Source of the DNA: Pleomorphomonas sp. T1.2MG-36
GTDB lineage: Bacteria; Pseudomonadota; Alphaproteobacteria; Rhizobiales; Pleomorphomonadaceae
Assembly (NCBI RefSeq): GCF_950100655.1
Contig: NZ_CATNLY010000053.1
Span: 1 to 64,000, forward strand
DNA: 64,000 bases
Reading direction: 5' to 3'
Each line of letters starts with the position of its first letter. Within the stretch, counting starts at the first letter, position 1. Shown piece after piece: positions 5,703 through 17,915 of the stretch. The position numbers and the translations under genes were made by a program. A model generated the notes under the pieces. It was not told the origin of the DNA. It did no database searches and saw only the letters and a list, made by a program, of their open reading frames with translations.

Positions 5703-6875
5703 TCAAGCGCGAATGTCGCGGATGATCTCGGCGGCGGCCTGCCCAAGGTCGCGTGCCTTCATCCAGACAAGGCAGACCGGCAGGTCGAAGGCGGCGGGCA
5801 GCTCCACCGCGTCGACCCCGCCGATGACGCCATCGACCGACACCTTGGGCAGCACGCTGAGATAGCCGTGCTCGCGCACCAGGTTGATGATGACGGGGAT
5901 CGAGTCGATCTCGGTGAAGTTGGCCGGTGTCTGGTCGCTGCGTTCGCCGCCCGCCTCCAGGAGGTCCCGCACGGCGCGCCTGAGACCGGAGCGGGCGGTC
6001 GGCACCGCCACAGGTTCGCGGCGCAGCGCTTCCACCGGATCGGGCGAGCGAGTCCGGAAGCCCGCCGCCCCGACCACGGCGAGGCGCGAGCGGCCGATCT
6101 CGACGCTGTCGAAGTCGGGGCCGGATACCAGCATGTCGACCAGCGCGAAGTCGAGTCGCCCGGCCTTCAGCTCGGAGATCAGATCCTCGGCGGTCGAACT
6201 CTTCAGCATCAGGTGGCTGCGCCGACCCGGCTGCCGCCAAGCGGCGACGAGATCGGCCAGCATGTGGGCGATCTGGCTTTCATGGCCGAGCGGCACGATG
6301 GCGCCGAGCCGGAGCGTGGCGACCTGACGGCGAAAGTCGCGGGCCGACGTGCTGGTCAGCAGGGTCCAGCGGCCGAGAAGCTCGGAAGCGAGCGCGGCGA
6401 CCCGCTCTCCGGCCGGCGTCGGCCGGCAGCCGCCGGCATTCCGGTCAAGCAGCCGGGTTCCGAGCTTCTCCTCGAGGCGGGCGAGCTGGCGCGACAGCTG
6501 CGGCTGGCCGACGCCGATGCGCCGGGCCGCCGTGCGAATGCTGCCGGCGGCAAGCGCGTCGACGAAATGTTGCAGCGCCAGGAGCGACAACGGCCGGGCC
6601 GCCGCCCACTGCCGGCCGCTTTCCGCCTGATCGTCACCCCATATCGCCACGGCGAGGTCGGCGATCTGCGCCAGATCGCGCCCGATGCGGCGCGCCTCGA
6701 AGGTGAAGGTCAGGCTGGAGCCGGCGGCAAAGGCCAGATCGACGGCCAGGGCCGCTTCCACCCGGCGAAAGGCCGCCGCCACGCTGCCGGTCGGCCGGTC
6801 CAGCGTCCGCGCCGCGCCCCGGAGCGAGGCGGCGCGCAAAACGCTATCGCAAATGATGAGTGCTGCTGTATCCAT
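5703..6875 (-). CDS. LysR-type regulator with two N-terminal HTH regions
   Basis: At 390 residues this is about 90 longer than a usual LysR protein. Residues 1-65 look like a degenerate LysR winged helix (SLRGAARTLDRPTGSVAAAF with RRVEAAL), and residues 92-155 form a second, canonical one (GSIRTAARRIGVGQPQLSRQ, then LARLEEKLGTRLLDR). The remainder is the periplasmic-binding-protein-like effector domain. The gene is divergent from the lyase operon, and the 102-130 base gap holds a perfect palindrome, so it most likely controls that operon in response to the imported substrate or an intermediate. The effector is unknown. Confidence 0.85.
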   Translation of the reverse strand: MDTAALIICDSVLRAASLRGAARTLDRPTGSVAAAFRRVEAALAVDLAFAAGSSLTFTFEARRIGRDLAQIADLAVAIWGDDQAESGRQWAAARPLSLLALQHFVDALAAGSIRTAARRIGVGQPQLSRQLARLEEKLGTRLLDRNAGGCRPTPAGERVAALASELLGRWTLLTSTSARDFRRQVATLRLGAIVPLGHESQIAHMLADLVAAWRQPGRRSHLMLKSSTAEDLISELKAGRLDFALVDMLVSGPDFDSVEIGRSRLAVVGAAGFRTRSPDPVEALRREPVAVPTARSGLRRAVRDLLEAGGERSDQTPANFTEIDSIPVIINLVREHGYLSVLPKVSVDGVIGGVDAVELPAAFDLPVCLVWMKARDLGQAAAEIIRDIRA

Positions 6876-6927
6876 ATGAGGCAGATCCGCGGGATTTGAC
6901 CAACTCAGAGGCAGCGACAGACGCTAG

Positions 6928-6981
6928 GCATAGGCCGTTCAGATAAAGGGATATCCCTTCCCTCGCAACCTTGACCTATGC
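6928..6981. promoter_or_regulatory. Candidate LysR operator region
   Basis: A perfect 14-base palindrome, AAGGGATATCCCTT (6946-6959), is flanked by a widely spaced inverted repeat, GCATAGG (6928-6934) and CCTATGC (6975-6981). Placement between the divergent regulator and lyase genes is typical of LysR recognition and activation sites. The inner palindrome, not the outer arms, is the stronger candidate. Binding is inferred. Confidence 0.5.
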
Positions 6982-7004
6982 TGGCCGACGAAAAGGTGAC
7001 GAGA

Positions 7005-8615
7005 GTGTCAGAATTGTCCTCCCCCGATTTCGCAGACGAAACGTCGACGGGCCTCGCCGTCCTGGAAGCCGTGGCGGCGGGAATGGGCGCCGTCGTGCTC
7101 GATGGCAAGCCGCTGCATTTCACCGCCCTGAGGCGTCTGTCGGCCGGAACCGACGTCGTGGTGATCGACGAGGCGGCCCTGGCCGCCGCCGCCGCCGCCC
7201 GTGCGGCCTTCGAGGCGGCGCTTGCCTCCGGAGCGCTCGTCTACGGCGCCAACACTGGCGTCGGGGCCATGAAGGATTGGACGCCGTCGCCGCAGGACCT
7301 TGCCCGCTTCAACGCCGACCTCGTCATCGCCCATTCGTTCGGCATCGGCACGCCGCTGCCCATCCCGGTCACCCGTCTTGCCATGGCGATCCGCGCCAAC
7401 ACCATGCTCGCCGGTCACACCGGTTCGACGCCGGCCCTCGCCCGCCAGCTGGTCGCCTGGCTCAACGCCGGCCTGACGCCGGTGCTGCGGCCGGTCGGCT
7501 CCATGGGGACCGGCGACATCGGCCTGATGGGACAGGTGGGAGCCGCGTTGGCCGGCGAAGGCGAGGTCCTATTGGCCGGTGAGACGATGCCCGCGCGCGA
7601 AGCGATCGCCCGGGCCGGCCTTGGTTCCTTCGAGTGCGGCGTGAAGGACAGTCTGGCCGCCCTGAGCTCCAACGCCGCCGGCGTGGCACTTGCCGCCTCC
7701 GCCATCGGCCGCGCCGCCGGCACGCTGCGCACGCTGATGGCCACCGGCCTCACCGCCGCCTCGGCTGCCGGCTCCCTGCCGGCGCCGGCACTGGCCGCCA
7801 CCGTTCTCGGCACGCCGCGTCAGGCGGAGATCGGCCACTGGATCGACACCGCCCGCACGGAAGCGGCCATCCCGCCCGGCAATCGCGTCCACGATCCGCT
7901 CAGCCTGCGCATGATGCCGCAAGTGTTTGCCGCCGCCATCGACGCCGTCGAGGCCACCGGCCGCGCAGCTGTCGCCGACACCGCCAAGAACGACGACAAC
8001 CCCGTGGTCGTCGATGGCGCCGTCCTGTCGTCCGGCGGTTCGCTGCCGCTCGACCTGACGCTCGCCGTCGAGGGCACAACGCTGGCGCTAGCCCATCTGG
8101 CGCGCAACGCCATGAACCGCTGCATCCTGATCGCCAACGGCCGCCTGATCGGCTTGCCGGTCAATCTGGTGGCGCCCGGCACGACGAGGACCGGCTTCGG
8201 GCCGGTGCTGAAGCTCGCCGCCGAACTGTTCGCCCGCGTCCGCCATCTCGCCATACCGGTTTCGACGGAACCGGTCGTGGTGGCCGACGGTTTGGAGGAC
8301 GAGGCGACCTTCCTGCCGCTGGCCGTGGAGAACCTGTCGGGTGCGCTCGACGCGCTCGACATGCTGGCCGCGCTGGAAGCGTTGATCGCCGCCGCCGCCT
8401 TCGACGTGGCCGGCCTCCGGCCCGAGGGCCTCGCCGGCCGCGTCCATGCCACCGTTCGCCGCTTCGCAGCGCCGCACGACCGAGACCGCCCGCTGTCGCG
8501 CGAGATCGAGGCGATCGCCGCCGACCTCGCTTCCACGGCGCGGATCGCCGAGTTGGGGAAGGCGGCGCCACTGCCAGGATTCGACAATTTTTTTGCTATT
8601 TTCGACAGCGCCTGA
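7005..8615 (+). CDS. HAL/PAL-family lyase lacking the MIO triad; candidate ergothionase
   Basis: The fold family is recognisable from YGANTGVGAMKD, NTMLAGHTGS, PVGSMGTGDIGLMGQ, the DNPVV segment, TRTGFGPVLKLAAEL and the VSTEPVV...EDEATF region. Histidine and phenylalanine ammonia-lyases have Ala-Ser-Gly in GS(V)GASGDL, which cyclises to the MIO electrophile; here the site (codons at 7497-7517) reads GSMGTGD, with no Ala-Ser-Gly. A MIO-free relative, ergothionase, eliminates trimethylamine from ergothioneine (known from Treponema; recalled). The downstream betaine-type importer, urocanase homologue and DUF917 gene agree with that role. GTG 7005 is preferred because AAAAGG sits 8 bases upstream; ATG 6978 is in frame but has no ribosome-binding site. 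It heads the operon. Confidence 0.8.
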   Translation: MSELSSPDFADETSTGLAVLEAVAAGMGAVVLDGKPLHFTALRRLSAGTDVVVIDEAALAAAAAARAAFEAALASGALVYGANTGVGAMKDWTPSPQDLARFNADLVIAHSFGIGTPLPIPVTRLAMAIRANTMLAGHTGSTPALARQLVAWLNAGLTPVLRPVGSMGTGDIGLMGQVGAALAGEGEVLLAGETMPAREAIARAGLGSFECGVKDSLAALSSNAAGVALAASAIGRAAGTLRTLMATGLTAASAAGSLPAPALAATVLGTPRQAEIGHWIDTARTEAAIPPGNRVHDPLSLRMMPQVFAAAIDAVEATGRAAVADTAKNDDNPVVVDGAVLSSGGSLPLDLTLAVEGTTLALAHLARNAMNRCILIANGRLIGLPVNLVAPGTTRTGFGPVLKLAAELFARVRHLAIPVSTEPVVVADGLEDEATFLPLAVENLSGALDALDMLAALEALIAAAAFDVAGLRPEGLAGRVHATVRRFAAPHDRDRPLSREIEAIAADLASTARIAELGKAAPLPGFDNFFAIFDSA

Positions 8616-8693
8616 GAATGCCGTGCCTCTCAATGGCCGGTGAAGACTGAAAAAATAGAACGGGATTACCCGCTACCTGCCAGGAGAACAGTC

Positions 8694-9602
8694 ATGACCC
8701 AGTTGAAATACGCTACCGCCGTGCTTGCCCTTGGCCTTCTCGCCGGCACCGCCGACGCCAAGGTCGTGGTGTCCTCGAAGATCGACACCGAGGGCGGTGT
8801 CCTCGGCAACATCATCCTGCTCGCGCTTCAGAATTCCGGCATCGAGGTCGAGGACCGCATCCAGCTCGGCGGAACGCCGGTGGTGCGCCAGGCGATCACC
8901 GCCGGCGAGATCGACATCTATCCCGAGTACACCGGCAACGCCGCCTTCTTCTTCAACAAGGCCGACGATCCGCTGTGGAAGGATGCCGCCAAGGCCTACG
9001 AGGAAGCCAAGAAGCTCGACTACGACGCCAACAAGATCGTCTGGCTGACGCCGTCGCCGGCCAACAACACCTGGGCCATCGCCCTGCGCAAGGACGTGGC
9101 CGACAAGGCCGGCGTCAAGTCGCTCAGCGATTTCGGTGCCTGGGTCGCCAAGGGCGGCGAAGTGAAGCTGGCCGGCTCGGCCGAGTTCGTCAATTCGGCC
9201 TCCGCGTTGCCCTCGTTCCAGACCACCTACGGCTTCAAGCTGACGCCCGAGCAGCTGATCGTGCTGTCCGGCGGCGACACGGCGGCCACCATCAAGGCGG
9301 CGGCCGACCAGACCAACGGCGCCAATGCCGCCATGGTCTACGGCACGGACGGCGCCATCGCCCCCTCGGGCCTCCTAGTGCTCGACGACGACAAGGCGGT
9401 GCAGCCGGTCTACCAGCCGACCGCCATCGTCCGCGAAGAGGTGCTGAAGGCCAACCCGACGATCGCCGACACGCTGAAGCCGATCTTCGAAAGCCTCGAC
9501 CTTGTGACGCTGCAGGACCTCAACGCCCGCGTCCAGATCGGCGGCGAGCCGGCCAAGGCGGTTGCCGAGGACTATCTGAAGACCAAGGGCTTCCTCAAGT
9601 AA
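8694..9602 (+). CDS. OsmF/YehZ-type substrate-binding protein of ABC importer
   Basis: The 302-residue protein has a signal peptide ending in GTADA and then the OpuAC/OsmF pattern: SSKIDTEGGVLGNIILLAL, QLGGTPVVRQAITAGEIDIY and PEYTGNAAFFF. This closely follows E. coli OsmF (YehZ), a quaternary-ammonium binding protein. There is no lipobox, so it is a soluble periplasmic protein. ATG 8694 is preceded by CAGGAGA. It follows the lyase gene by 78 bases and its position suggests that it captures the lyase substrate, a betaine such as ergothioneine or its S-methyl derivative. The ligand is inferred from context only. Confidence 0.9.
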   Translation: MTQLKYATAVLALGLLAGTADAKVVVSSKIDTEGGVLGNIILLALQNSGIEVEDRIQLGGTPVVRQAITAGEIDIYPEYTGNAAFFFNKADDPLWKDAAKAYEEAKKLDYDANKIVWLTPSPANNTWAIALRKDVADKAGVKSLSDFGAWVAKGGEVKLAGSAEFVNSASALPSFQTTYGFKLTPEQLIVLSGGDTAATIKAAADQTNGANAAMVYGTDGAIAPSGLLVLDDDKAVQPVYQPTAIVREEVLKANPTIADTLKPIFESLDLVTLQDLNARVQIGGEPAKAVAEDYLKTKGFLK

Positions 9603-9611
9603 CAGCCTGAC

Positions 9612-9637
9612 GCGGAGGGGTTCTGCCCCTCCGCCTT
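9612..9637 (+). terminator. Intercistronic hairpin after the binding-protein gene
   Basis: GCGGAGGGG (9612-9620) and CCCCTCCGC (9626-9634) form a 9-bp stem with a 5-base loop, followed by CTTT. It lies between the binding protein and the first permease. Such hairpins often protect the binding-protein mRNA or partly terminate transcription so that it is made in excess; full termination is unlikely because the operon continues. Confidence 0.55.
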
Positions 9638-9656
9638 TCCCAGCCGAAGGATTGCC

Positions 9657-10841
9657 ATGACGACGCTTTCAGATGCCGGAACGGACGGAGCCGCCGCGCC
9701 GCGGGTCGACCGTCTCGGCGTCGTCATCGCCATCCTGGTGGCCGTGACGCTGGCACTGCCCTTTGCCACCTTCCGGGCGACCCGCATCGCCTCGGGAACC
9801 GGCCTCCGGCTGTTCGACGCGCTGCCGCCGATGGAGGCCGCCGCGGTCACCGCCGTTCTCGTCGCCGCGCTGGTCACGGCCGTGGCGAGCCGCAGCCCGG
9901 TGTTCCGCCTCGTCCTCGGCGCGCTGGCCATCGGCGCCCTCGCCCTCAGCGTCGGCGCCGCCGGCACGCACCTGACGCCGACCGACAACCCCTATGCCCG
10001 CATCGCGCCGGCCAGCGGCTTCTGGGTCGGGGTGTTCGCCACCGCCATGCTGGTCACCGACGCCATGGTGCGGCTGAAGCTCGGCCCAGTCGGCCGGCTG
10101 GTCGCGCTGGTCGCCACGGCGGCGCTGATCGTCGCCCTGCTCGCCTCCGGCGCCTGGAGCCACCTGTCGCTCATCGCCGAATACCGCAACCGCGCCGACG
10201 TGTTCTGGCGCGAGGCGATCAACCACGTGGTGCTCGCCGCCGGCTCGCTGGCCGCCGCCGTCGCCATCGGTCTGCCGCTCGGCGTCCTCGCCTATCAGGT
10301 CCGCGCCGTCCGCGACCCGATGATCAACGTCCTCAACATCATCCAGACCATTCCGTCGATGGCGCTGTTCGGCATCCTGATCGCCCCGCTCGGCTGGATC
10401 GCCGCCAACGTGCCGGGCGCGCATGCCATCGGCATTCGCGGCATCGGCACGGCGCCGGCCTTCCTGGCGCTGTTCCTCTATTCGCTGCTGCCGATGGTCG
10501 CCAACACCGTGGTCGGCCTGTCCGGGGTGTCGCGCGCCGTGGTCGACGCCGCGCGCGGCATGGGGCTCACCGACCGGCAGCGCCTCCTCCAGGTGGAAAT
10601 GCCGCTGGCGCTGCCGGTCGTTCTCACCGGCATCCGCATCGTCCTCGTCCAGAACATCGGCCTTGCCACGGTGGCGGCGCTGATCGGCGGCGGCGGCTTC
10701 GGCGTCTTCCTGTTCCAGGGGCTAGGCCAGACGGCCACCGACCTCATCCTGCTCGGCGCGCTGCCGCCGGTGGCGCTGGCTTTCGCCGCCGCCGTCGTGC
10801 TCGACGCCGTCATCGAGATTTCCGGCAAGGGTAAGGCATGA
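9657..10841 (+). CDS. YehY-type permease of quaternary-amine ABC importer
   Basis: The 394-residue membrane protein has about four extra hydrophobic segments in its N-terminal half and a BPD_transp_1 permease domain from roughly residue 180 on, with the ATPase-coupling EAA-like loop (VVDAARGMGLTDRQRLLQVE followed by PLALPVVLTG). The long N-terminal membrane extension matches E. coli YehY rather than OpuAB/ProW. It overlaps the ATPase gene by 4 bases (ATGA). Confidence 0.9.
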   Translation: MTTLSDAGTDGAAAPRVDRLGVVIAILVAVTLALPFATFRATRIASGTGLRLFDALPPMEAAAVTAVLVAALVTAVASRSPVFRLVLGALAIGALALSVGAAGTHLTPTDNPYARIAPASGFWVGVFATAMLVTDAMVRLKLGPVGRLVALVATAALIVALLASGAWSHLSLIAEYRNRADVFWREAINHVVLAAGSLAAAVAIGLPLGVLAYQVRAVRDPMINVLNIIQTIPSMALFGILIAPLGWIAANVPGAHAIGIRGIGTAPAFLALFLYSLLPMVANTVVGLSGVSRAVVDAARGMGLTDRQRLLQVEMPLALPVVLTGIRIVLVQNIGLATVAALIGGGGFGVFLFQGLGQTATDLILLGALPPVALAFAAAVVLDAVIEISGKGKA

Positions 10842-11776
10842 TCGAACTCAGCCATCTCACCAAGGTCTATGGCGACATCCCCGTCGTCAACGACGTCCAC
10901 ATGGAGATCGAGTCCGGCACGATCACCGTCATCGTCGGCACCTCCGGCTCGGGCAAGTCGACGCTCTTGCGCATGGTCAACCGGCTGATCGAGCCGACCG
11001 AGGGCCGCGTCTTCATCGAAGGCAACGACGTGTCGATGATGCCGGCGCACGAACTCCGGCGCTCGATCGGCTACGCCATCCAGAACCACGGCCTGTTTCC
11101 GCACTGGACCGTCGCCCGCAACATCGCCACCGTGCCGATGCTGCTCGGCTGGGACCGCAAGACGGTGGCCGCCCGCGTCGAGGAACTGATGGAGCTGTTC
11201 CAGCTCGATCACGCCCAGTTCGCCGGCCGCTATCCGCACGAACTGTCCGGCGGCCAGCAGCAGCGCGTCGGCGTCGCCCGCGCGCTGGCGGCCAAGCCCG
11301 CCCTCCTGCTGATGGACGAGCCGTTCGGGGCCCTCGATCCGATCATCCGCGCCAAGGCGCAGTCCGACCTCAAGGCCATCCAGCGGCGCACCGGCACCAC
11401 CATACTGCTGGTCACCCACGACATGGCCGAGGCGGTCCATCTCGGCGACCGCATCGCCGTCATGGACGGTGGCCGCCTCAAGCAATATGCGCCGGCCGCC
11501 GACATTCTGGCCCGACCGGCCGATGCCTTCGTCGACGACCTGATCGGCTCCCTCGACCGCCCCTTCCATTACCTGACGCTCGGCACGGTCGGTGCGGCGG
11601 TCGAACCCGGCGAGGCGGACGGTGCACCGCTTGCCGCCGATGCCAGCCTCTACGAGGGCCTCGGCGTGCTGCTCTGGTCCGGCCGCAAGACGGCGCCGGT
11701 GGTCGACGCCGCCGGAGCGCCGATCGGCCGCGTCAGTCTCGACAGCATTGCCGGCCGGGCGGCGCGGCCCAGATGA
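10838..11776 (+). CDS. ATP-binding protein of quaternary-amine ABC importer
   Basis: The 312-residue ATPase carries a Walker A (GTSGSGKST), Q-loop (AIQNHGLFP), signature LSGGQQQRVGVARAL, Walker B (ALLLMDEPFGALDP) and switch His (LVTHDMAEAV). The C-terminal 70 residues resemble a single shortened CBS-like unit, as in YehX/OpuCA-type ATPases. It energises the two permeases encoded on either side, with 4-base overlaps at both ends, so the subunits are translationally coupled. Confidence 0.93.
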   Translation: MIELSHLTKVYGDIPVVNDVHMEIESGTITVIVGTSGSGKSTLLRMVNRLIEPTEGRVFIEGNDVSMMPAHELRRSIGYAIQNHGLFPHWTVARNIATVPMLLGWDRKTVAARVEELMELFQLDHAQFAGRYPHELSGGQQQRVGVARALAAKPALLLMDEPFGALDPIIRAKAQSDLKAIQRRTGTTILLVTHDMAEAVHLGDRIAVMDGGRLKQYAPAADILARPADAFVDDLIGSLDRPFHYLTLGTVGAAVEPGEADGAPLAADASLYEGLGVLLWSGRKTAPVVDAAGAPIGRVSLDSIAGRAARPR

Positions 11777-12528
11777 TCCGCCCCGGCACCCTCCTGCGGC
11801 TGATCGTCTTCCTGACGCTCATCACCTTTCTCGCGGCGCCGGATCGCTTTGCCGGCCTGCTGGCGCCGCTGACCAACAACGGCGCACCGCCGATCTACAA
11901 TCAGGGCAGCCTGATCGACCTGACGTTGTCGCATCTGCTCACCGTCGCCGTGTCGACGCTGGCCGCCGCCGTGGTCGCCGTCGGGCTCGCCATCTTCGTG
12001 ACGAGGCCGGCCGGCGCCGAGTTCCTCGCCCTGTCGCGCGCCGTCGTCAACATCGGCCAGACCTTCCCGCCGGTGGCGGTGCTGGCGCTTTCGGTACCAG
12101 CCATGGGCTTCGGCGAGGCGCCGACCCGCATGGCGCTGTTCCTCTACGGCCTGCTGCCGATCTTCGAGAACACGCTGGTCGGCCTGTCGACGCTGCCGCC
12201 GGCCGTCGTCGAGGCCGCCTCGGCCATGGGCATGACGAACCGCCAGCGCCTTCTGAAGGTCGAGCTGCCGCTCGCCATGCCGCTGATCGTCGAGGGCATC
12301 CGGCTGTCGGCCGTCATCGGCCTGGCCACGGCGACCATCGGCTCGACGGTGGCCGCCAAGGGGCTCGGCGAGGTGATCGTCGCCGGCCTGTTGTCCAACA
12401 ATCTCGCCTTCATCGTCCAGGGCGGCGTCATCACCGGCGTCCTGGCCGTGCTGATTTCCGACGGCTTTCAGGCCGTGGCGCGCCAAGCGGCAAAGCGGCG
12501 CGGCGCCCGGCCGCAGACGGAGACCTGA
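11773..12528 (+). CDS. YehW-type permease of quaternary-amine ABC importer
   Basis: This 251-residue permease has six or so hydrophobic segments and the coupling loop VVEAASAMGMTNRQRLLKVE before PLAMPLIVEG. It pairs with the larger permease upstream to form the heterodimeric channel seen in OsmF (YehZYXW) systems. Its start overlaps the ATPase stop (ATGA), and its stop is 3 bases before the amidohydrolase start. Confidence 0.9.
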   Translation: MIRPGTLLRLIVFLTLITFLAAPDRFAGLLAPLTNNGAPPIYNQGSLIDLTLSHLLTVAVSTLAAAVVAVGLAIFVTRPAGAEFLALSRAVVNIGQTFPPVAVLALSVPAMGFGEAPTRMALFLYGLLPIFENTLVGLSTLPPAVVEAASAMGMTNRQRLLKVELPLAMPLIVEGIRLSAVIGLATATIGSTVAAKGLGEVIVAGLLSNNLAFIVQGGVITGVLAVLISDGFQAVARQAAKRRGARPQTET

Positions 12529-12531
12529 GCC

Positions 12532-13905
12532 ATGTCCGATTTCGACCTCGTCCTCGCCGGCACGCTGGTTCTGCCGGACGAGCTGGTGCCGCGCGGCTTC
12601 GTCGCCGTTTCGGGCGGCAAGGTGGCGATGATCGGCCGCGGCGTCGCCCCCTCGGCCCGCACCCGCCACGACCTCGGCGACGCTCTGATCCTGCCCGGCG
12701 CCATCGACGCCCAGGTGCATTCGCTCAGCCAGAAGGGCCAGGAGGACTTCGTCTGGTCGACGCGGGCGGCGGCAGCCGGCGGCGTCACCACCATCGTCGA
12801 CATGCCCTATGACGAGGGCGACGTGGTCAACTCCGCCGACGCGGTGAAGCGCAAGGTCGCCCATGCCGAGAGCCAAGCGCGCGTCGACTTCGCCCTGCAT
12901 GGCACCATCGACCCGGCCGAGGGAGCAAGCCGCATTGCCGAGATGATCGAGGCCGGCGTTGCCGCCTTCAAGTTCTCGACCTTCGGCACCCACCCGACGC
13001 GCTTTCCCCGCATCCCGCCGCAGATGCTCCACGACGCCTTCGCCGCCATCGCGCCTTACGGACTGGTGGCCGGCGTTCACAACGAGAACCACGAGGCGGT
13101 CGAGGCGCACATGGCCAAGGTGAAGGCGGCCGGCATCACCGACTGGCGCGCCCACGGCCTGTCCCGCCCGCCGATCACCGAAACGCTGGCCATGGCCGAG
13201 ATCTACGAGATCGGCGCCAGCACGGGCTGCGACGCCCACGTCGTCCACTGCTCGGTGGGGCGCGGCTACGAGCTGGCCGCCCGCTATCGCGCCGAAGGCC
13301 ACATGGCCACCGCCGAGGCCTGCATCCACTACCTGACGCTCGACGAGGAGCACGACGTCGCCCGGCTCGGCGGCAGGGCCAAGATCAACCCGCCGATCCG
13401 GCCGCGCGCCGAGGTGGAGACGCTGTGGCGCCACGTCGCCGCCGGCAACGTCTGGCTGGTGTCCACCGACCACGTCGCCTGGTCGGAGGAGCGCAAGACC
13501 GACCCGGACATGCTGAAGAACGCGTCCGGCGCCCCCGGCCTCGAAGCGATGATCCCGCTGTTCGTCAAGGGCGCGCTCGAACGTGGCGTGCCGCTGACCT
13601 GGGCGGCGAAGCTGATGGCCGAGAACCCGGCCCGCCATTTCCGCATCGACCACGTCAAGGGCGCGCTCGCCGTCGGCCGCGATGCCGACATCGTGGTGAT
13701 GACGCCCGAGCCCTACGTCTACGACGCCGCCGCGAGCGGCAACACGGTGGTCGGCTGGTCGCCCTACAACGGCATGCGCCTGCCCTGGCGCGTCGCCGCC
13801 ACCTACAATCGAGGCGATGAGGTCTATGCCGGCGGCAAGGTGCTGGCCGAGCCCGGCCGTGGCCGCTTCGTCCGCCCGCCAGTCACCCGGCCGATTTCGC
13901 CATGA
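12532..13905 (+). CDS. Hydantoinase/allantoinase-like amidohydrolase
   Basis: The 457-residue enzyme belongs to the cyclic-imide amidohydrolases (dihydropyrimidinase, hydantoinase, allantoinase, dihydroorotase). Visible metal ligands are His63, the carbamylated-Lys candidate Lys147 (AAFKFS), His183 (GVHNENH), His239 (DAHVVHC) and Asp313 (STDHVAWS). The usual His-x-His after PGxID is Gln61-Val-His63 here (PGAIDAQVHS), an unusual change. The neighbouring carbamoylase would hydrolyse the ring-opened product, so a hydantoin is the likely substrate, and hydantoin-5-propionate fits the cluster. Allantoin is an alternative but no other ureide genes are present. Stop overlaps the next start. Confidence 0.85.
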   Translation: MSDFDLVLAGTLVLPDELVPRGFVAVSGGKVAMIGRGVAPSARTRHDLGDALILPGAIDAQVHSLSQKGQEDFVWSTRAAAAGGVTTIVDMPYDEGDVVNSADAVKRKVAHAESQARVDFALHGTIDPAEGASRIAEMIEAGVAAFKFSTFGTHPTRFPRIPPQMLHDAFAAIAPYGLVAGVHNENHEAVEAHMAKVKAAGITDWRAHGLSRPPITETLAMAEIYEIGASTGCDAHVVHCSVGRGYELAARYRAEGHMATAEACIHYLTLDEEHDVARLGGRAKINPPIRPRAEVETLWRHVAAGNVWLVSTDHVAWSEERKTDPDMLKNASGAPGLEAMIPLFVKGALERGVPLTWAAKLMAENPARHFRIDHVKGALAVGRDADIVVMTPEPYVYDAAASGNTVVGWSPYNGMRLPWRVAATYNRGDEVYAGGKVLAEPGRGRFVRPPVTRPISP

Positions 13906-15155
13906 CCAACCGTCTCGCCCGCGCCGACCGCATCGCCGCCGACATCGACGCGCTGGCCGCGCTGACCGATCCCGATCGTCCCTGGACGCGCCGCGCCTTC
14001 ACGCCGCGCTTCCTCGACGGGCGAGCCTACATGGCCAAGGCAATGGCGGACGCCGGGCTCGACGTCCGCATCGACACCGCCGGCAACATGATCGGACGCC
14101 GGCCGGGGCGGGTTCCCGGCAAAGGCGTCCTCGCCGTCGGCTCGCATTCCGACACGGTGCCGGACGGCGGCCGGTTCGACGGCATTGCCGGCGTGGTGGC
14201 CGGCCTGGAGATCGCCCGCGCCCTCCGGGAGCGCGGCATCGAACTCGACCACGATTTCGAGGTGGTCGACTGCCTCGCCGAGGAGGTGTCGATCTTCGGC
14301 GTCTCCTGCGTCGGCTCGCGGGCCATCGCCGGCGTGCTGCCGGAAGACTGGCTCGTCCGCACCGCCGACAGCCTCACCCTCGCCGAAGGCATCCGGGGCG
14401 TCGGCGGCGATCCCGCCCGCCTTGCCGAGGCGAAGCGGTCCGACATCGCCGCCTTCCTCGAACTGCACATAGAGCAGGGGCCGGTGCTGGAAGCCGGACG
14501 GCTCGACGTCGGCATCGTCACGGCCATCGCCGGCATCACCCGCGTCGAGATCGCCGTTGCCGGCCGGGCCGACCACGCCGGCACCACGCCGATGACCACC
14601 CGCGCCGACGCGCTGGTCGCCGCCGCCGAACTGGTGATCGCCATCGAACGGCTGGCGCTCGAACGGTCGCTGGGCGAGGCCCACTTCGCCGCCACCGTCG
14701 GCGAATTCTCCATCCTGCCCGGCGCCGCCAACGTGGTGCCGTCGTCCGCCCGACTGCTGATCGACGCCCGCGCCGAACGGCGCGCCGACATGGAGGCCTT
14801 CCTCGCCGATCTCGCGGGCCTCGTCGCCGACATCGCCGGCCGTCGCGGCGTGGCGATCGCCGAGCCGCGCCGGGTGTCCGACAACTGGCCGACGCCATCC
14901 GACGCGGGGCTGCTGTCACTCATGGAAACCGCCGCCGACACAGCGGGCGCCACCCACCGGCGCATGGCCTCCGGCGCCGGCCACGACATGGCGTTCTTCG
15001 CGCGCATCGCGCCGGCCGCCATGCTGTTCGTCCCCTGCCGGGACGGCCGCAGCCATTCCCCCGACGAATGGGCGGAGGCCGAGGCCATCGCCCTCGGCAC
15101 CGACGTGCTGATCGAAACCATCCGGCGCCTCGATGCGCGCCAAGACACGGAGTGA
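13902..15155 (+). CDS. M20-family N-carbamoyl-amino-acid amidohydrolase
   Basis: The 417-residue protein follows the AmaB/allantoate amidohydrolase/beta-ureidopropionase pattern: GSHSDTVPDGGRFDGIAG (first metal ligands), DCLAEEVSIFG (Glu-Glu pair), FLELHIEQGPVLE, GRADHAGTTPM and MASGAGHDMAFF. Family members hydrolyse N-carbamoyl amino acids to the amino acid, CO2 and ammonia using two divalent metals. Coupled by a 4-base overlap to the hydantoinase-like gene, it most likely acts on that enzyme's product; in the proposed pathway this is N-carbamoyl-glutamate giving glutamate. Confidence 0.9.
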   Translation: MTNRLARADRIAADIDALAALTDPDRPWTRRAFTPRFLDGRAYMAKAMADAGLDVRIDTAGNMIGRRPGRVPGKGVLAVGSHSDTVPDGGRFDGIAGVVAGLEIARALRERGIELDHDFEVVDCLAEEVSIFGVSCVGSRAIAGVLPEDWLVRTADSLTLAEGIRGVGGDPARLAEAKRSDIAAFLELHIEQGPVLEAGRLDVGIVTAIAGITRVEIAVAGRADHAGTTPMTTRADALVAAAELVIAIERLALERSLGEAHFAATVGEFSILPGAANVVPSSARLLIDARAERRADMEAFLADLAGLVADIAGRRGVAIAEPRRVSDNWPTPSDAGLLSLMETAADTAGATHRRMASGAGHDMAFFARIAPAAMLFVPCRDGRSHSPDEWAEAEAIALGTDVLIETIRRLDARQDTE

Positions 15156-15159
15156 ACCC

Positions 15160-16257
15160 ATGGGCCGCATTCTCACCCTCCGCGACGTCGAGGCCGCCGT
15201 GCGCGGCGGCTCCGTCTACGCCGCCGGCGGCGGCGGCTGGGTCGACCATGGCCGCATGCTCGGCGGCGCCGCCGTGCGCATGGGCAAGCCGGAGCTGGTC
15301 TCGGTCGACGAACTCGCCCCCGAGGCGATCGTCGCTACGGCGGCGGCCATCGGCGCGCCGGCCGGCACCACGCCCTGGGAGATGCAGGGCGTCGACTACG
15401 TCAAGGCCGCCCAACTGCTGCAGGAGACGCTCGGCAAGAAGATCGCCGGCTTCATGGTCGGCCAGAACGGCCGCTCGTCGACGCTGAACGGCTGGCTGCC
15501 GGCGGTGACGCTCGGCGCCAAGGTGGTCGACGCGGTCGGCGACATCCGGGCGCATCCGACCGGCGACATGGGCTCCATCGGCCTTGCCGGTTCGCCCGCG
15601 CCGACCATCCAGACCGCCGTCGGCGGCAACCGCGCCGACAATCGCTACATCGAGCTGGTCGTGCGCGGCGCCACCGCCAAGGTATCGCCGATCCTGCGCA
15701 CCGCCTCCGACATGTCCGGCGGGTTCATCGCCTCCTGCCGCGCGCCCGTCACCGCCGCCTACGTCAAGGCCAACGCGGCGCTGGGCGGCATTTCCCTGGC
15801 GCTCGCCCTCGGCGAGGCCATCCTCGACGCCGAGGACAAGGGCGGCGCGGCGGTGATCGATGCCATCCTGAAGACCACCGGCGGCGCGCTGCTCTCCGAG
15901 GGCCGCATCACCAAAAAGGCGGTGGTCTACACCAAGGAAGCCTTCGACATCGGTACGGTGACGCTCGAAAGCGGCAAGCGGGCGACCACGCTGCACATCA
16001 TGAACGAGTACATGGCGGTCGACGATGCCGGCGGCCGGCGCATCGCCACCTTCCCCGACGTCATCACCACGCTCAATACCAACGGCGAGCCGCTGTCGGT
16101 CGGCCAGCTCGAAGAGGGAATGACCATCTTCGTGCTGCACGTGCCGAAGACGCTGATCCCCCTGGGGTCCTCGGTGCTCGATCCCACCGTCTATCCGCCG
16201 GTGGAAAAGGCGATGGGCATCGACATCGCCCGCTACGCGCTCGGCGCATCGGTCTGA
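15160..16257 (+). CDS. DUF917 protein, candidate S-methyl-thiohydantoin desulfurase
   Basis: The 365-residue product matches DUF917 by its glycine-rich start (VYAAGGGGWVDHGRM), the VSVDELAPEAIV and AAAIGAPAGTTPWE segments, and the central VVDAVGDIRAHPTGDMGSIG. DUF917 is now named after an S-methyl-thiohydantoin desulfurase (S-Me-THD) in Pfam, as I recall. In this operon it would remove the sulfur (or methanethiol) from the thiohydantoin made by the urocanase homologue. DUF917 domains also accompany hydantoinases in other settings, so the assignment depends on context. Start at ATG 15160, 4 bases after the carbamoylase stop, with a GGAG site. Confidence 0.75.
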   Translation: MGRILTLRDVEAAVRGGSVYAAGGGGWVDHGRMLGGAAVRMGKPELVSVDELAPEAIVATAAAIGAPAGTTPWEMQGVDYVKAAQLLQETLGKKIAGFMVGQNGRSSTLNGWLPAVTLGAKVVDAVGDIRAHPTGDMGSIGLAGSPAPTIQTAVGGNRADNRYIELVVRGATAKVSPILRTASDMSGGFIASCRAPVTAAYVKANAALGGISLALALGEAILDAEDKGGAAVIDAILKTTGGALLSEGRITKKAVVYTKEAFDIGTVTLESGKRATTLHIMNEYMAVDDAGGRRIATFPDVITTLNTNGEPLSVGQLEEGMTIFVLHVPKTLIPLGSSVLDPTVYPPVEKAMGIDIARYALGASV

Positions 16258-16271
16258 GGGGGGAGACGACC

Positions 16272-17915
16272 ATGGCCAATCCCCGCTTTCCCACCCCCGG
16301 CGGCACCACGCTCCGCGCCAAGGGCTGGCGGCAGGAAGCGCTGCTGCGCCTCCTCGAAAACGTGCTGTCGGTCGGCGAAGACCCCGACAACCTGATCGTC
16401 TACGCCTCGCTCGGTCGCGCCGCCCGCAACTGGGCCGCCCACGACAGGATCGTCGAGACGCTGAAGACCATGGACGAGGACCAGACGCTGCTGATCCAGT
16501 CCGGCAAGCCGGTCGGGCTTCTGAAGACGCACCCGCAAGCGCCGCTGGTCATCATGGCCAACTGCAACATCGTCGGCCAGTGGGCAAAGGCCGAGGTGTT
16601 CTACGACCTTCAGGAAAAGGGCCTGATCTGCTGGGGCGGCCTGACGGCCGGCGCCTGGCAGTATATCGGCAGCCAGGGCGTCATCCAGGGCACCTACGAA
16701 ATCTTCATGCGCATCGCCGAGAAGCGATTCGGCGGCACGCTCGCCGGCCGTTTCGTGCTGACCGCCGGCCTCGGCGGCATGGGCGGTTCGCAGCCGCTGG
16801 CCGGCCGCATGGCCGGCGCCGCCATCCTCTGCGTCGACGTCGATCCGGAGAGGGCCGAGAAGCGCAAGGCGATCGGCTATCTCGACGTGGTCGCCCCCGA
16901 TCTCGACGCGGCGCTCGACATGGTGCTGGCGGCCAAGGCGGAGGGCCGGGCGCTGTCGGTCGGCCTCGTCGCCAACGCCGCCGACGTCTATCCGGAGATC
17001 GTCCGGCGCGGCATCATCCCCGACGTCGTCACCGACCAGACCGCCGCCCACGACCTCGTCTACGGCTACGTGCCCAACACCCGCACGCTTGCCGAGGCGC
17101 GGGCCATGCGCAAGACCGACCCGGCCAGCCTGATGGCCGAGAGCCGCGCCGCCATCGCCGTCCACGTCTCCGCCATGCTGGATTTCCAGAAGGCCGGCGC
17201 CGAGGTGTTCGACAACGGCAACCTGATCCGCACCCATGCCCGCGACGGCGGGGTAGCGAACGCCTTCGACATCCCGATCTTCACCGAGGCCTATCTCCGG
17301 CCGCTGTTCTCCCGTGCCATCGGACCGTTCCGCTGGATGGCGCTCAGCGGCGACCCCGAGGACATCCGCAAGATCGATGACAAGGTGCTGGAGCTGTTCC
17401 CCGACGACCACATCGTCGGCAACTGGATTCGCCTCGCCCGCGAGAACGTGCCCTTCGAGGGCCTGCCGGCCCGCATCGCCTGGCTTGGCCACGGCGCCCG
17501 CACCGAACTGGCGCTCGCCGTCAACGCCATGGTGAGGGACGGCACGCTCAGGGGGCCGGTCGCCTTCTCGCGCGATCATCTCGATGCCGGCGCCATGGCC
17601 CACCCCAACATCATGACCGAGAAGATGAAGGACGGCTCCGACGCCATCGCCGACTGGCCGCTCATCGACGCCATGACGCTCTGTTCGTCGATGGCCGACC
17701 TCGTGGTCGTCCATTCGGGCGGCGGCGGCTATGCCGGCTTCATGACCTCGGCCGGCGTGACGCTGGTCGCCGACGGCACCGACGCCGCCGATCGCCGCCT
17801 CGACCTGTCGCTCACCAACGACACGTCGATCGGCGTCATCCGCTATGCCGACGCCGGCTATGCCGATGCGGCGGACGAAGCGGAGAGGAAGGCGGTCGGC
17901 TGGTTGGGGCTTTAG
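16272..17915 (+). CDS. Urocanase homologue, candidate thiourocanate hydratase
   Basis: The 547-residue protein aligns over its full length with urocanate hydratase: SLGRAARNW, IQSGKPVGLLKTH, TAGAWQYIGSQGVIQGTYE, RFVLTAGLGGMGGSQPLAGR (NAD-binding region), TDQTAAHDLVYGY, PLFSRAIGPFRWMALSGDPE. It differs at catalytic places: the GLPARICW motif reads GLPARIAW (Ala403 replaces the Cys known as Cys410 in Pseudomonas putida), and the conserved HHGGGVGMG reads HSGGGGYAG. True urocanases keep these, so a different substrate is likely. Thiourocanate or S-methyl-thiourocanate, the expected lyase product, is the best candidate. GGGGGGAGA precedes the ATG by 6 bases. It is the last gene of the operon. Confidence 0.82.
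   Translation: MANPRFPTPGGTTLRAKGWRQEALLRLLENVLSVGEDPDNLIVYASLGRAARNWAAHDRIVETLKTMDEDQTLLIQSGKPVGLLKTHPQAPLVIMANCNIVGQWAKAEVFYDLQEKGLICWGGLTAGAWQYIGSQGVIQGTYEIFMRIAEKRFGGTLAGRFVLTAGLGGMGGSQPLAGRMAGAAILCVDVDPERAEKRKAIGYLDVVAPDLDAALDMVLAAKAEGRALSVGLVANAADVYPEIVRRGIIPDVVTDQTAAHDLVYGYVPNTRTLAEARAMRKTDPASLMAESRAAIAVHVSAMLDFQKAGAEVFDNGNLIRTHARDGGVANAFDIPIFTEAYLRPLFSRAIGPFRWMALSGDPEDIRKIDDKVLELFPDDHIVGNWIRLARENVPFEGLPARIAWLGHGARTELALAVNAMVRDGTLRGPVAFSRDHLDAGAMAHPNIMTEKMKDGSDAIADWPLIDAMTLCSSMADLVVVHSGGGGYAGFMTSAGVTLVADGTDAADRRLDLSLTNDTSIGVIRYADAGYADAADEAERKAVGWLGL

Follow-up and report, generated by a model that had tools for sequence, protein, structure and literature searches.

Bacterial breakdown of ergothioneine to glutamate proceeds by elimination of trimethylamine, hydration of the resulting thiourocanate, replacement of sulfur by oxygen and two hydrolytic steps. 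The closest described system is the Ert pathway, represented by the curated models NF058529, NF058530, NF058538 and NF058540; the S-methyl-ergothioneine pathway (NF058531, NF058532) has a homologous hydratase and desulfurase, and the lyase step is represented by the ergothionase of Treponema denticola (PDB entry 6s7j). We have identified a putative operon for ergothioneine degradation in Pleomorphomonas sp. T1.2MG-36, at positions 5703 to 17915 of the 64,000-nucleotide stretch that was analysed (contig NZ_CATNLY010000053.1, hereafter ‘the window’). One LysR gene on the minus strand is divergent from nine plus-strand genes (6978 to 17915), which follow one another in the order lyase, substrate-binding protein, permease, ATPase, permease, ErtD, ErtE, DUF917 enzyme and urocanase homologue. 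The pathway is already known and the present operon adds another member to it; judged from sequence, the probability that its enzymes belong there is about 0.86. It differs from the Ert pathway in its lyase, which forms a clade of its own outside every curated ergothionase model, and in being tied to an OsmF-type importer, a LysR regulator with tandem helix-turn-helix (HTH) segments and a conserved site. The operon would place in this bacterial group a complete route from ergothioneine to glutamate, importer and regulator included.

Family membership was assessed with NCBIfam release 20.0 and its family-specific bit-score cut-offs. Four of the five enzymes passed the cut-offs for the plain ergothioneine route, and the reactions of the Ert pathway are expected of them: the thiourocanate hydratase with its urocanase domains (16272-17915; NF058530, 1015.9 bits, cut-off 930), the thiohydantoin desulfurase (DUF917, S-Me-THD in Pfam; 15133-16257; NF058529, 582.7 bits, cut-off 440), the hydantoin-5-propionate amidohydrolase ErtD (12532-13905; NF058538, 785.4 bits, cut-off 600) and the N-carbamoyl-glutamate amidohydrolase ErtE, an M20 carbamoylase (13902-15155; NF058540, 587.8 bits, cut-off 520). 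ErtE scored higher still on the generic hydrolase model NF009531 (650.0, cut-off 486), and the hydratase also passed the broad HutU model TIGR01228 (697.8, cut-off 375).

Among PDB sequences the hydratase matched 7ned, which we take to be a thiourocanate hydratase, with 798 bits, the best HutU with 618 and 8q9u, presumably the S-methyl enzyme, with 588. A 17-row tree was built from 13 operon-locus hydratases, 7ned and three HutU sequences; it split the 14 hydratases (7ned included) from HutU with support of 100/100 and 41 fixed differences, long branches being flagged between the 7ned and HutU rows. The clade and the narrower model NF058530 both place the operon hydratase outside HutU. The first-pass annotation of this DNA had proposed a phylogeny of the urocanase homologue against HutU, and it is the 7ned clade that the protein joins. 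Its list of gene families (lyase, four-part importer, hydantoinase-like enzyme, M20 protein, DUF917 protein and urocanase) was likewise borne out by the family matches.

From these assignments we infer the following reactions for the present organism. The lyase would convert ergothioneine to thiourocanate and trimethylamine, and the urocanase homologue would hydrate thiourocanate to thiohydantoin-5-propionate. The DUF917 enzyme would then put oxygen in place of sulfur, releasing H2S, after which ErtD would open the hydantoin ring to give N-carbamoyl-glutamate and ErtE would convert the latter to glutamate. The earlier proposal of one enzyme for each step from ergothioneine to glutamate finds support at all five steps.

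The first of these steps deserves special attention, as it has no curated NCBIfam model and is hence left unnamed by such searches: no ergothionase model in NCBIfam matched the operon lyase (6978-8615), nor did any match the Treponema ergothionase. The protein belongs to the HAL family (PF00221), but scored only 196.2 on the HutH model TIGR01225, below the cut-off of 539.15. It reads GSMGT-GD where HutH has GSVGASGD, a one-residue deletion without the ASG of the methylidene imidazolone (MIO) motif, so that its description as MIO-free stands. The best PDB sequence match was 6s7j (E 7.7e-44); for Pseudomonas HutH the value was 1.1e-35. Residues were compared among 11 MIO-free operon lyases, one of them partial and that of G099 left out, in 6s7j chain numbering counted from the alignment. 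Y53, K63, D64, S194, D308, H344, K383 and E411, some of which we take to be catalytic, are common to 6s7j and all 11; K63, D64, S194, D308, H344 and K383 differ in the MIO-type HutH of the same genome. The operon lyase and 6s7j have in common the HAL fold, the one-residue MIO deletion and these residues, and are about 26% identical. In the lyase tree, HutH-like rows were split from the rows with the one-residue deletion, 6s7j included, with support of 99/96. In this phylogeny, of the kind suggested at first pass, the lyase falls on the non-HutH side together with 6s7j, but the branch of 6s7j is long and lies apart from the clade of operon lyases. A structural comparison did not tell ergothionase from HutH, the two being tied. 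On motif, shared residues and best match, the operon lyase is a predicted ergothionase.

Other HAL-family lyases have departed from the MIO motif as well. A lyase elsewhere in the same genome (L064, C1:494576-496072) and a further one, L020, carry GSVGYLSHMAHI in its place, by sequence a second and different MIO loss; L064 has HutF, a HutU-like gene and ABC (ATP-binding cassette) transporter genes as neighbours. A third clade with a one-residue deletion (L060, L061 and L062) has K383 and lacks K63 and D308, and no ert genes adjoined its members in the stretches read.

The gene set recurs far from the window. Thiourocanate hydratase exceeded its cut-off in 5 of 385 genomes of the class and 6 of 398 of the phylum, the window's genome being counted in each. 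We compared 14 loci with this enzyme, the window included, drawn from those surveys, two relatives of the genus and the lyase matches G018 and G024. The full gene order with divergent LysR is kept in G004, G012, G018, G024, G099 and G321. It is seen in a second genus of the family, in a further family of the order and in two more groups of the class, which argues that the set is more than chance. Five enzymes without an OsmF transporter alongside were found in G530, G665, G041 and G715, the last with a LysR gene, and only lyase, desulfurase and hydratase in the stretch read of G074. Of the 14 genomes of the genus, G000, G004 and G012 combine a lyase match of at least 947 bits with a hydratase above its cut-off; in the remaining 11, lyase matches are of HutH level only and no hydratase passes the cut-off.

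Two loci depart from this arrangement. In G145 (L050, 6561-11605) a lyase with intact MIO adjoins a desulfurase and a hydratase, both over cut-off, and neither ErtD nor ErtE is present in the stretch read; elsewhere that genome has a second MIO lyase with a urocanase homologue (L122). The L050 enzymes may degrade 2-thiohistidine, an amine rather than a betaine, to the same intermediates. In G699 (L055, 2194-10811) a desulfurase, a hydratase, ErtD and LysR stand with an SBP_bac_3 importer in place of OsmF. No lyase lies nearby, and the sole lyase match in that genome is 28% identical; this organism may take up thiourocanate directly.

The transporter of the operon consists of an OsmF-type substrate-binding protein (8640-9602; NF049931, 501 bits, cut-off 400) and, by family matches, ABC permease 1 (9657-10841), an ABC ATPase (10838-11776) and ABC permease 2 (11773-12528). 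It would probably bring in ergothioneine. EgtD was not found in the genome (the model matched in only 1 of 14 controls, below cut-off), so the ergothioneine would come from outside. According to PMC9732360, the ergothioneine binding protein EgtU of Firmicutes is marked by F293 and the invariant G244. The operon protein resembles EgtU in its binding-protein superfamily and in an aromatic cage for quaternary amines, and differs at the positions of F293, G244 and R379 (located by motif spacing) and in its separate four-gene OsmF layout. In the pocket, K, I, N-T-W and the three tyrosines of the quaternary-amine cage are kept, and the positions of F293 and G244 hold Y and D, again by motif spacing. 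The ligand is likely to be of the betaine type and unlikely to be histidine.

The ligand is the weakest link of the proposal: the importer is of OsmF type and without EgtU markers, and its cage residues are identical in all the copies aligned, seven from operons and six standing alone. We accordingly rejected the idea that the pocket marks a specificity for ergothioneine. The range of the transporter may be broader and include other betaines, as nine genus genomes keep it at the same locus on its own, without the enzymes. Both points speak for a general betaine (osmoprotectant) importer that the operon has recruited, to which we give not quite an even chance; this possibility concerns the importer alone and leaves the enzyme assignment untouched. 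The name of its family model (glycine betaine OsmF) speaks for recruitment as well. The mid-operon position of the transporter in several families argues for a dedicated ergothioneine importer, as does G699, which has no lyase near and uses the SBP_bac_3 importer instead.

As to the substrate, ergothioneine sulfonate (oxidised ergothioneine) or another histidine betaine might be the true one and ergothioneine secondary; ergothionase also accepts the sulfonate. An ergothioneine sulfonate pathway in Agrobacterium is cited in PMC13405746. We consider a substrate of this kind very improbable, since the desulfurase and the thiourocanate hydratase, which here pass their respective models, would be expected for the thione and not for the sulfonate. 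S-methyl-ergothioneine, which the first-pass annotation had offered as an alternative substrate, is very improbable too. Its route draws on the same enzyme superfamilies, and both of its models match the operon enzymes, but below cut-off (NF058531, 740.6 on the hydratase, cut-off 880; NF058532, 289.2 on the desulfurase, cut-off 450), whereas both non-methyl models pass; the S-methyl half of the earlier title is therefore unsupported. A search of the 398 phylum genomes with NF058531 at E 1e-240 gave no match, and as the controls were silent too it has no bearing on absence.

Elsewhere in this genome lie an MIO-type HutH (L063; 719.5 bits on NF006871, cut-off 524) and a HutU-like protein (L005, L064), the latter scoring 683.3 bits on NF058530, below cut-off, and joining the HutU clade; the operon is consequently not its hut operon. 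A histidine utilisation variant, to which the HAL and urocanase homologies and the hydratase score on the broad HutU model might point, is hardly credible in view of the lost MIO, the failed HutH cut-off, the separate hydratase clade with its fixed differences and these additional HutH and HutU proteins. The warning that the operon would be misread as histidine utilisation holds for the broad HutU model and not for the thiourocanate model, which the hydratase also passes, nor for the HutH model, which the lyase fails.

Between the LysR and lyase genes, seven loci have a gapless 26-bp pattern in common, CATANNNYGTNCNNNNNNWGGGATAT, which lies here on the plus strand at 6929-6954. Its presence at those seven loci is given by construction. 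Independently of this, whole-genome searches met it exactly once in each of the seven genomes and in none of 13 others; the reversed control had no occurrence in any of the 20. Five genomes that were not used to derive the pattern also carry the site: with one mismatch between LysR and lyase in G099, upstream of LysR in G699 and upstream of the lyase in G530 and G041, and with two mismatches upstream of the lyase in G665. For the one-mismatch loci, the expectation from shuffles was 0.01 per locus in three cases (at two mismatches) and 0.10 in the fourth (at three mismatches). Only three- and four-mismatch candidates were present in G074, and no site was found near the genes of G145. At up to two mismatches, the site is present in 12 of the 14 loci, including all nine with an adjacent LysR. 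We regard CATANNNYGTNCNNNNNNWGGGATAT as a candidate operator of the operon, and such a site offers a DNA handle for finding ergothioneine regulons.

The regulator (5703-6875, minus strand, 390 aa) has a degenerate extra HTH at its N-terminus, followed by the Pfam domains HTH_1 and LysR_substrate. In a profile comparison of seven LysR proteins the N-terminal segment repeats the HTH (probability 98.1, E 1e-13). The segment of the window protein matches PF00126 weakly (18.2 bits, cut-off 26.6), and for three relatives Pfam counts two HTH_1 stretches in each LysR protein when the threshold is set to 1, for one of the three also when it is 1e-6. The extra HTH is kept in LysR proteins beside ert operons of other families. 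The two-HTH LysR would probably control the operon from the 26-bp site in the divergent intergenic region, and may do so as a double-HTH regulator reading a two-part sequence. In the titles and abstract openings searched, which mostly leave subscription papers outside their coverage, the operon, regulator and site are unnamed; as far as that literature goes, three computational findings are new, namely the 26-bp site, the LysR protein with two HTH segments and the importer retained without the enzymes.

The importer has probably outlasted the enzymes in most of the genus. The binding protein is present in 12 of the 14 genomes and the operon with its hydratase in three, so that an importer confined to enzyme-bearing genomes was rejected. 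We read the transporter-only locus in nine genomes, leaving out G006 and G007, which have no binding protein. There the four transporter genes stand by themselves between the same neighbours; LysR and lyase are missing on one side and the four other enzymes on the other, and tblastn with LysR and lyase queries gave no match at E 1e-3 in these nine loci. Relics of the lyase gene are clear in four of the nine and weaker in five. In G011 the intergenic region retains the promoter with the beginning of the lyase gene (window 6910-7092, E 6e-9) and, after it, the end of that gene (8456-8680, E 4e-17, in a match that extends into the leader of the binding protein), and the stop codon of permease 2 abuts the downstream neighbour directly. 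The best match to the LysR-lyase stretch was compared with 100 shuffles per genome: it exceeded all 100 in G011, G003, G009, G010, G002 and G001, that of G001 marginally (32.6 bits, the highest-scoring shuffle reaching 31.1). Shuffles reached the relic score in G005 (2 of 100), G008 (3 of 100) and G013 (4 of 100), which weakens the case for loss. In G005, G013, G008 and G002 the trace comprises only the last 15 or so codons of the lyase, a C-terminal motif that recurs in lyases of other families.

The operon genomes are scattered over an unrooted tree of the flanks, G012 standing with G010 (99.5/97) and G000 lying outside a group, supported at 100/100, to which G004 and G012 belong; G004 and G011, which each lack one flank piece, are placed without support. 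This would take three gains, all at the same pair of sites, or, as we count them, some five or six losses. The lyase relics favour loss over gain, and disfavour a transporter-only ancestral state with later insertion of the enzymes; local recombination may also lie behind the distribution. In eight of the nine transporter-only genomes (G008 left out), the four transporter genes have no stops and a ratio of nonsynonymous to synonymous substitution rates (dN/dS) of 0.08-0.38 relative to the window copies. The degradation genes were probably lost repeatedly, with the importer under purifying selection. We would extend this, tentatively and with more doubt than confidence, to a joint proposal: in Pleomorphomonas, catabolism was lost several times by deletion on either side of the importer, a change from eating to importing only, and the double-HTH LysR, ErtR, recognises a bipartite 26-bp site conserved among families of Alphaproteobacteria. 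If true, the OsmF-type importers of this group would be ergothioneine importers and the site would mark ergothioneine regulons. Such a natural reduction of the operon to its importer raises a testable question about the cargo, and about uptake by bacteria that neither make nor eat ergothioneine.

Coordinates, strands and overlaps were read in the window for LysR and the nine plus-strand genes. The first-pass annotation was right in placing a divergent LysR beside closely packed genes, but counted eight of them where nine are co-directional; its several 4-base overlaps are three in number (10838-10841, 11773-11776 and 13902-13905). Some start codons probably lie downstream of those given above. 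The lyase is more likely to start at GTG 7005 than at 6978, with AAGGTGA upstream, and the region around this codon is matched in two relatives of the same genus. The binding protein more likely starts at ATG 8694 than at 8640, and the desulfurase may start at ATG 15160.
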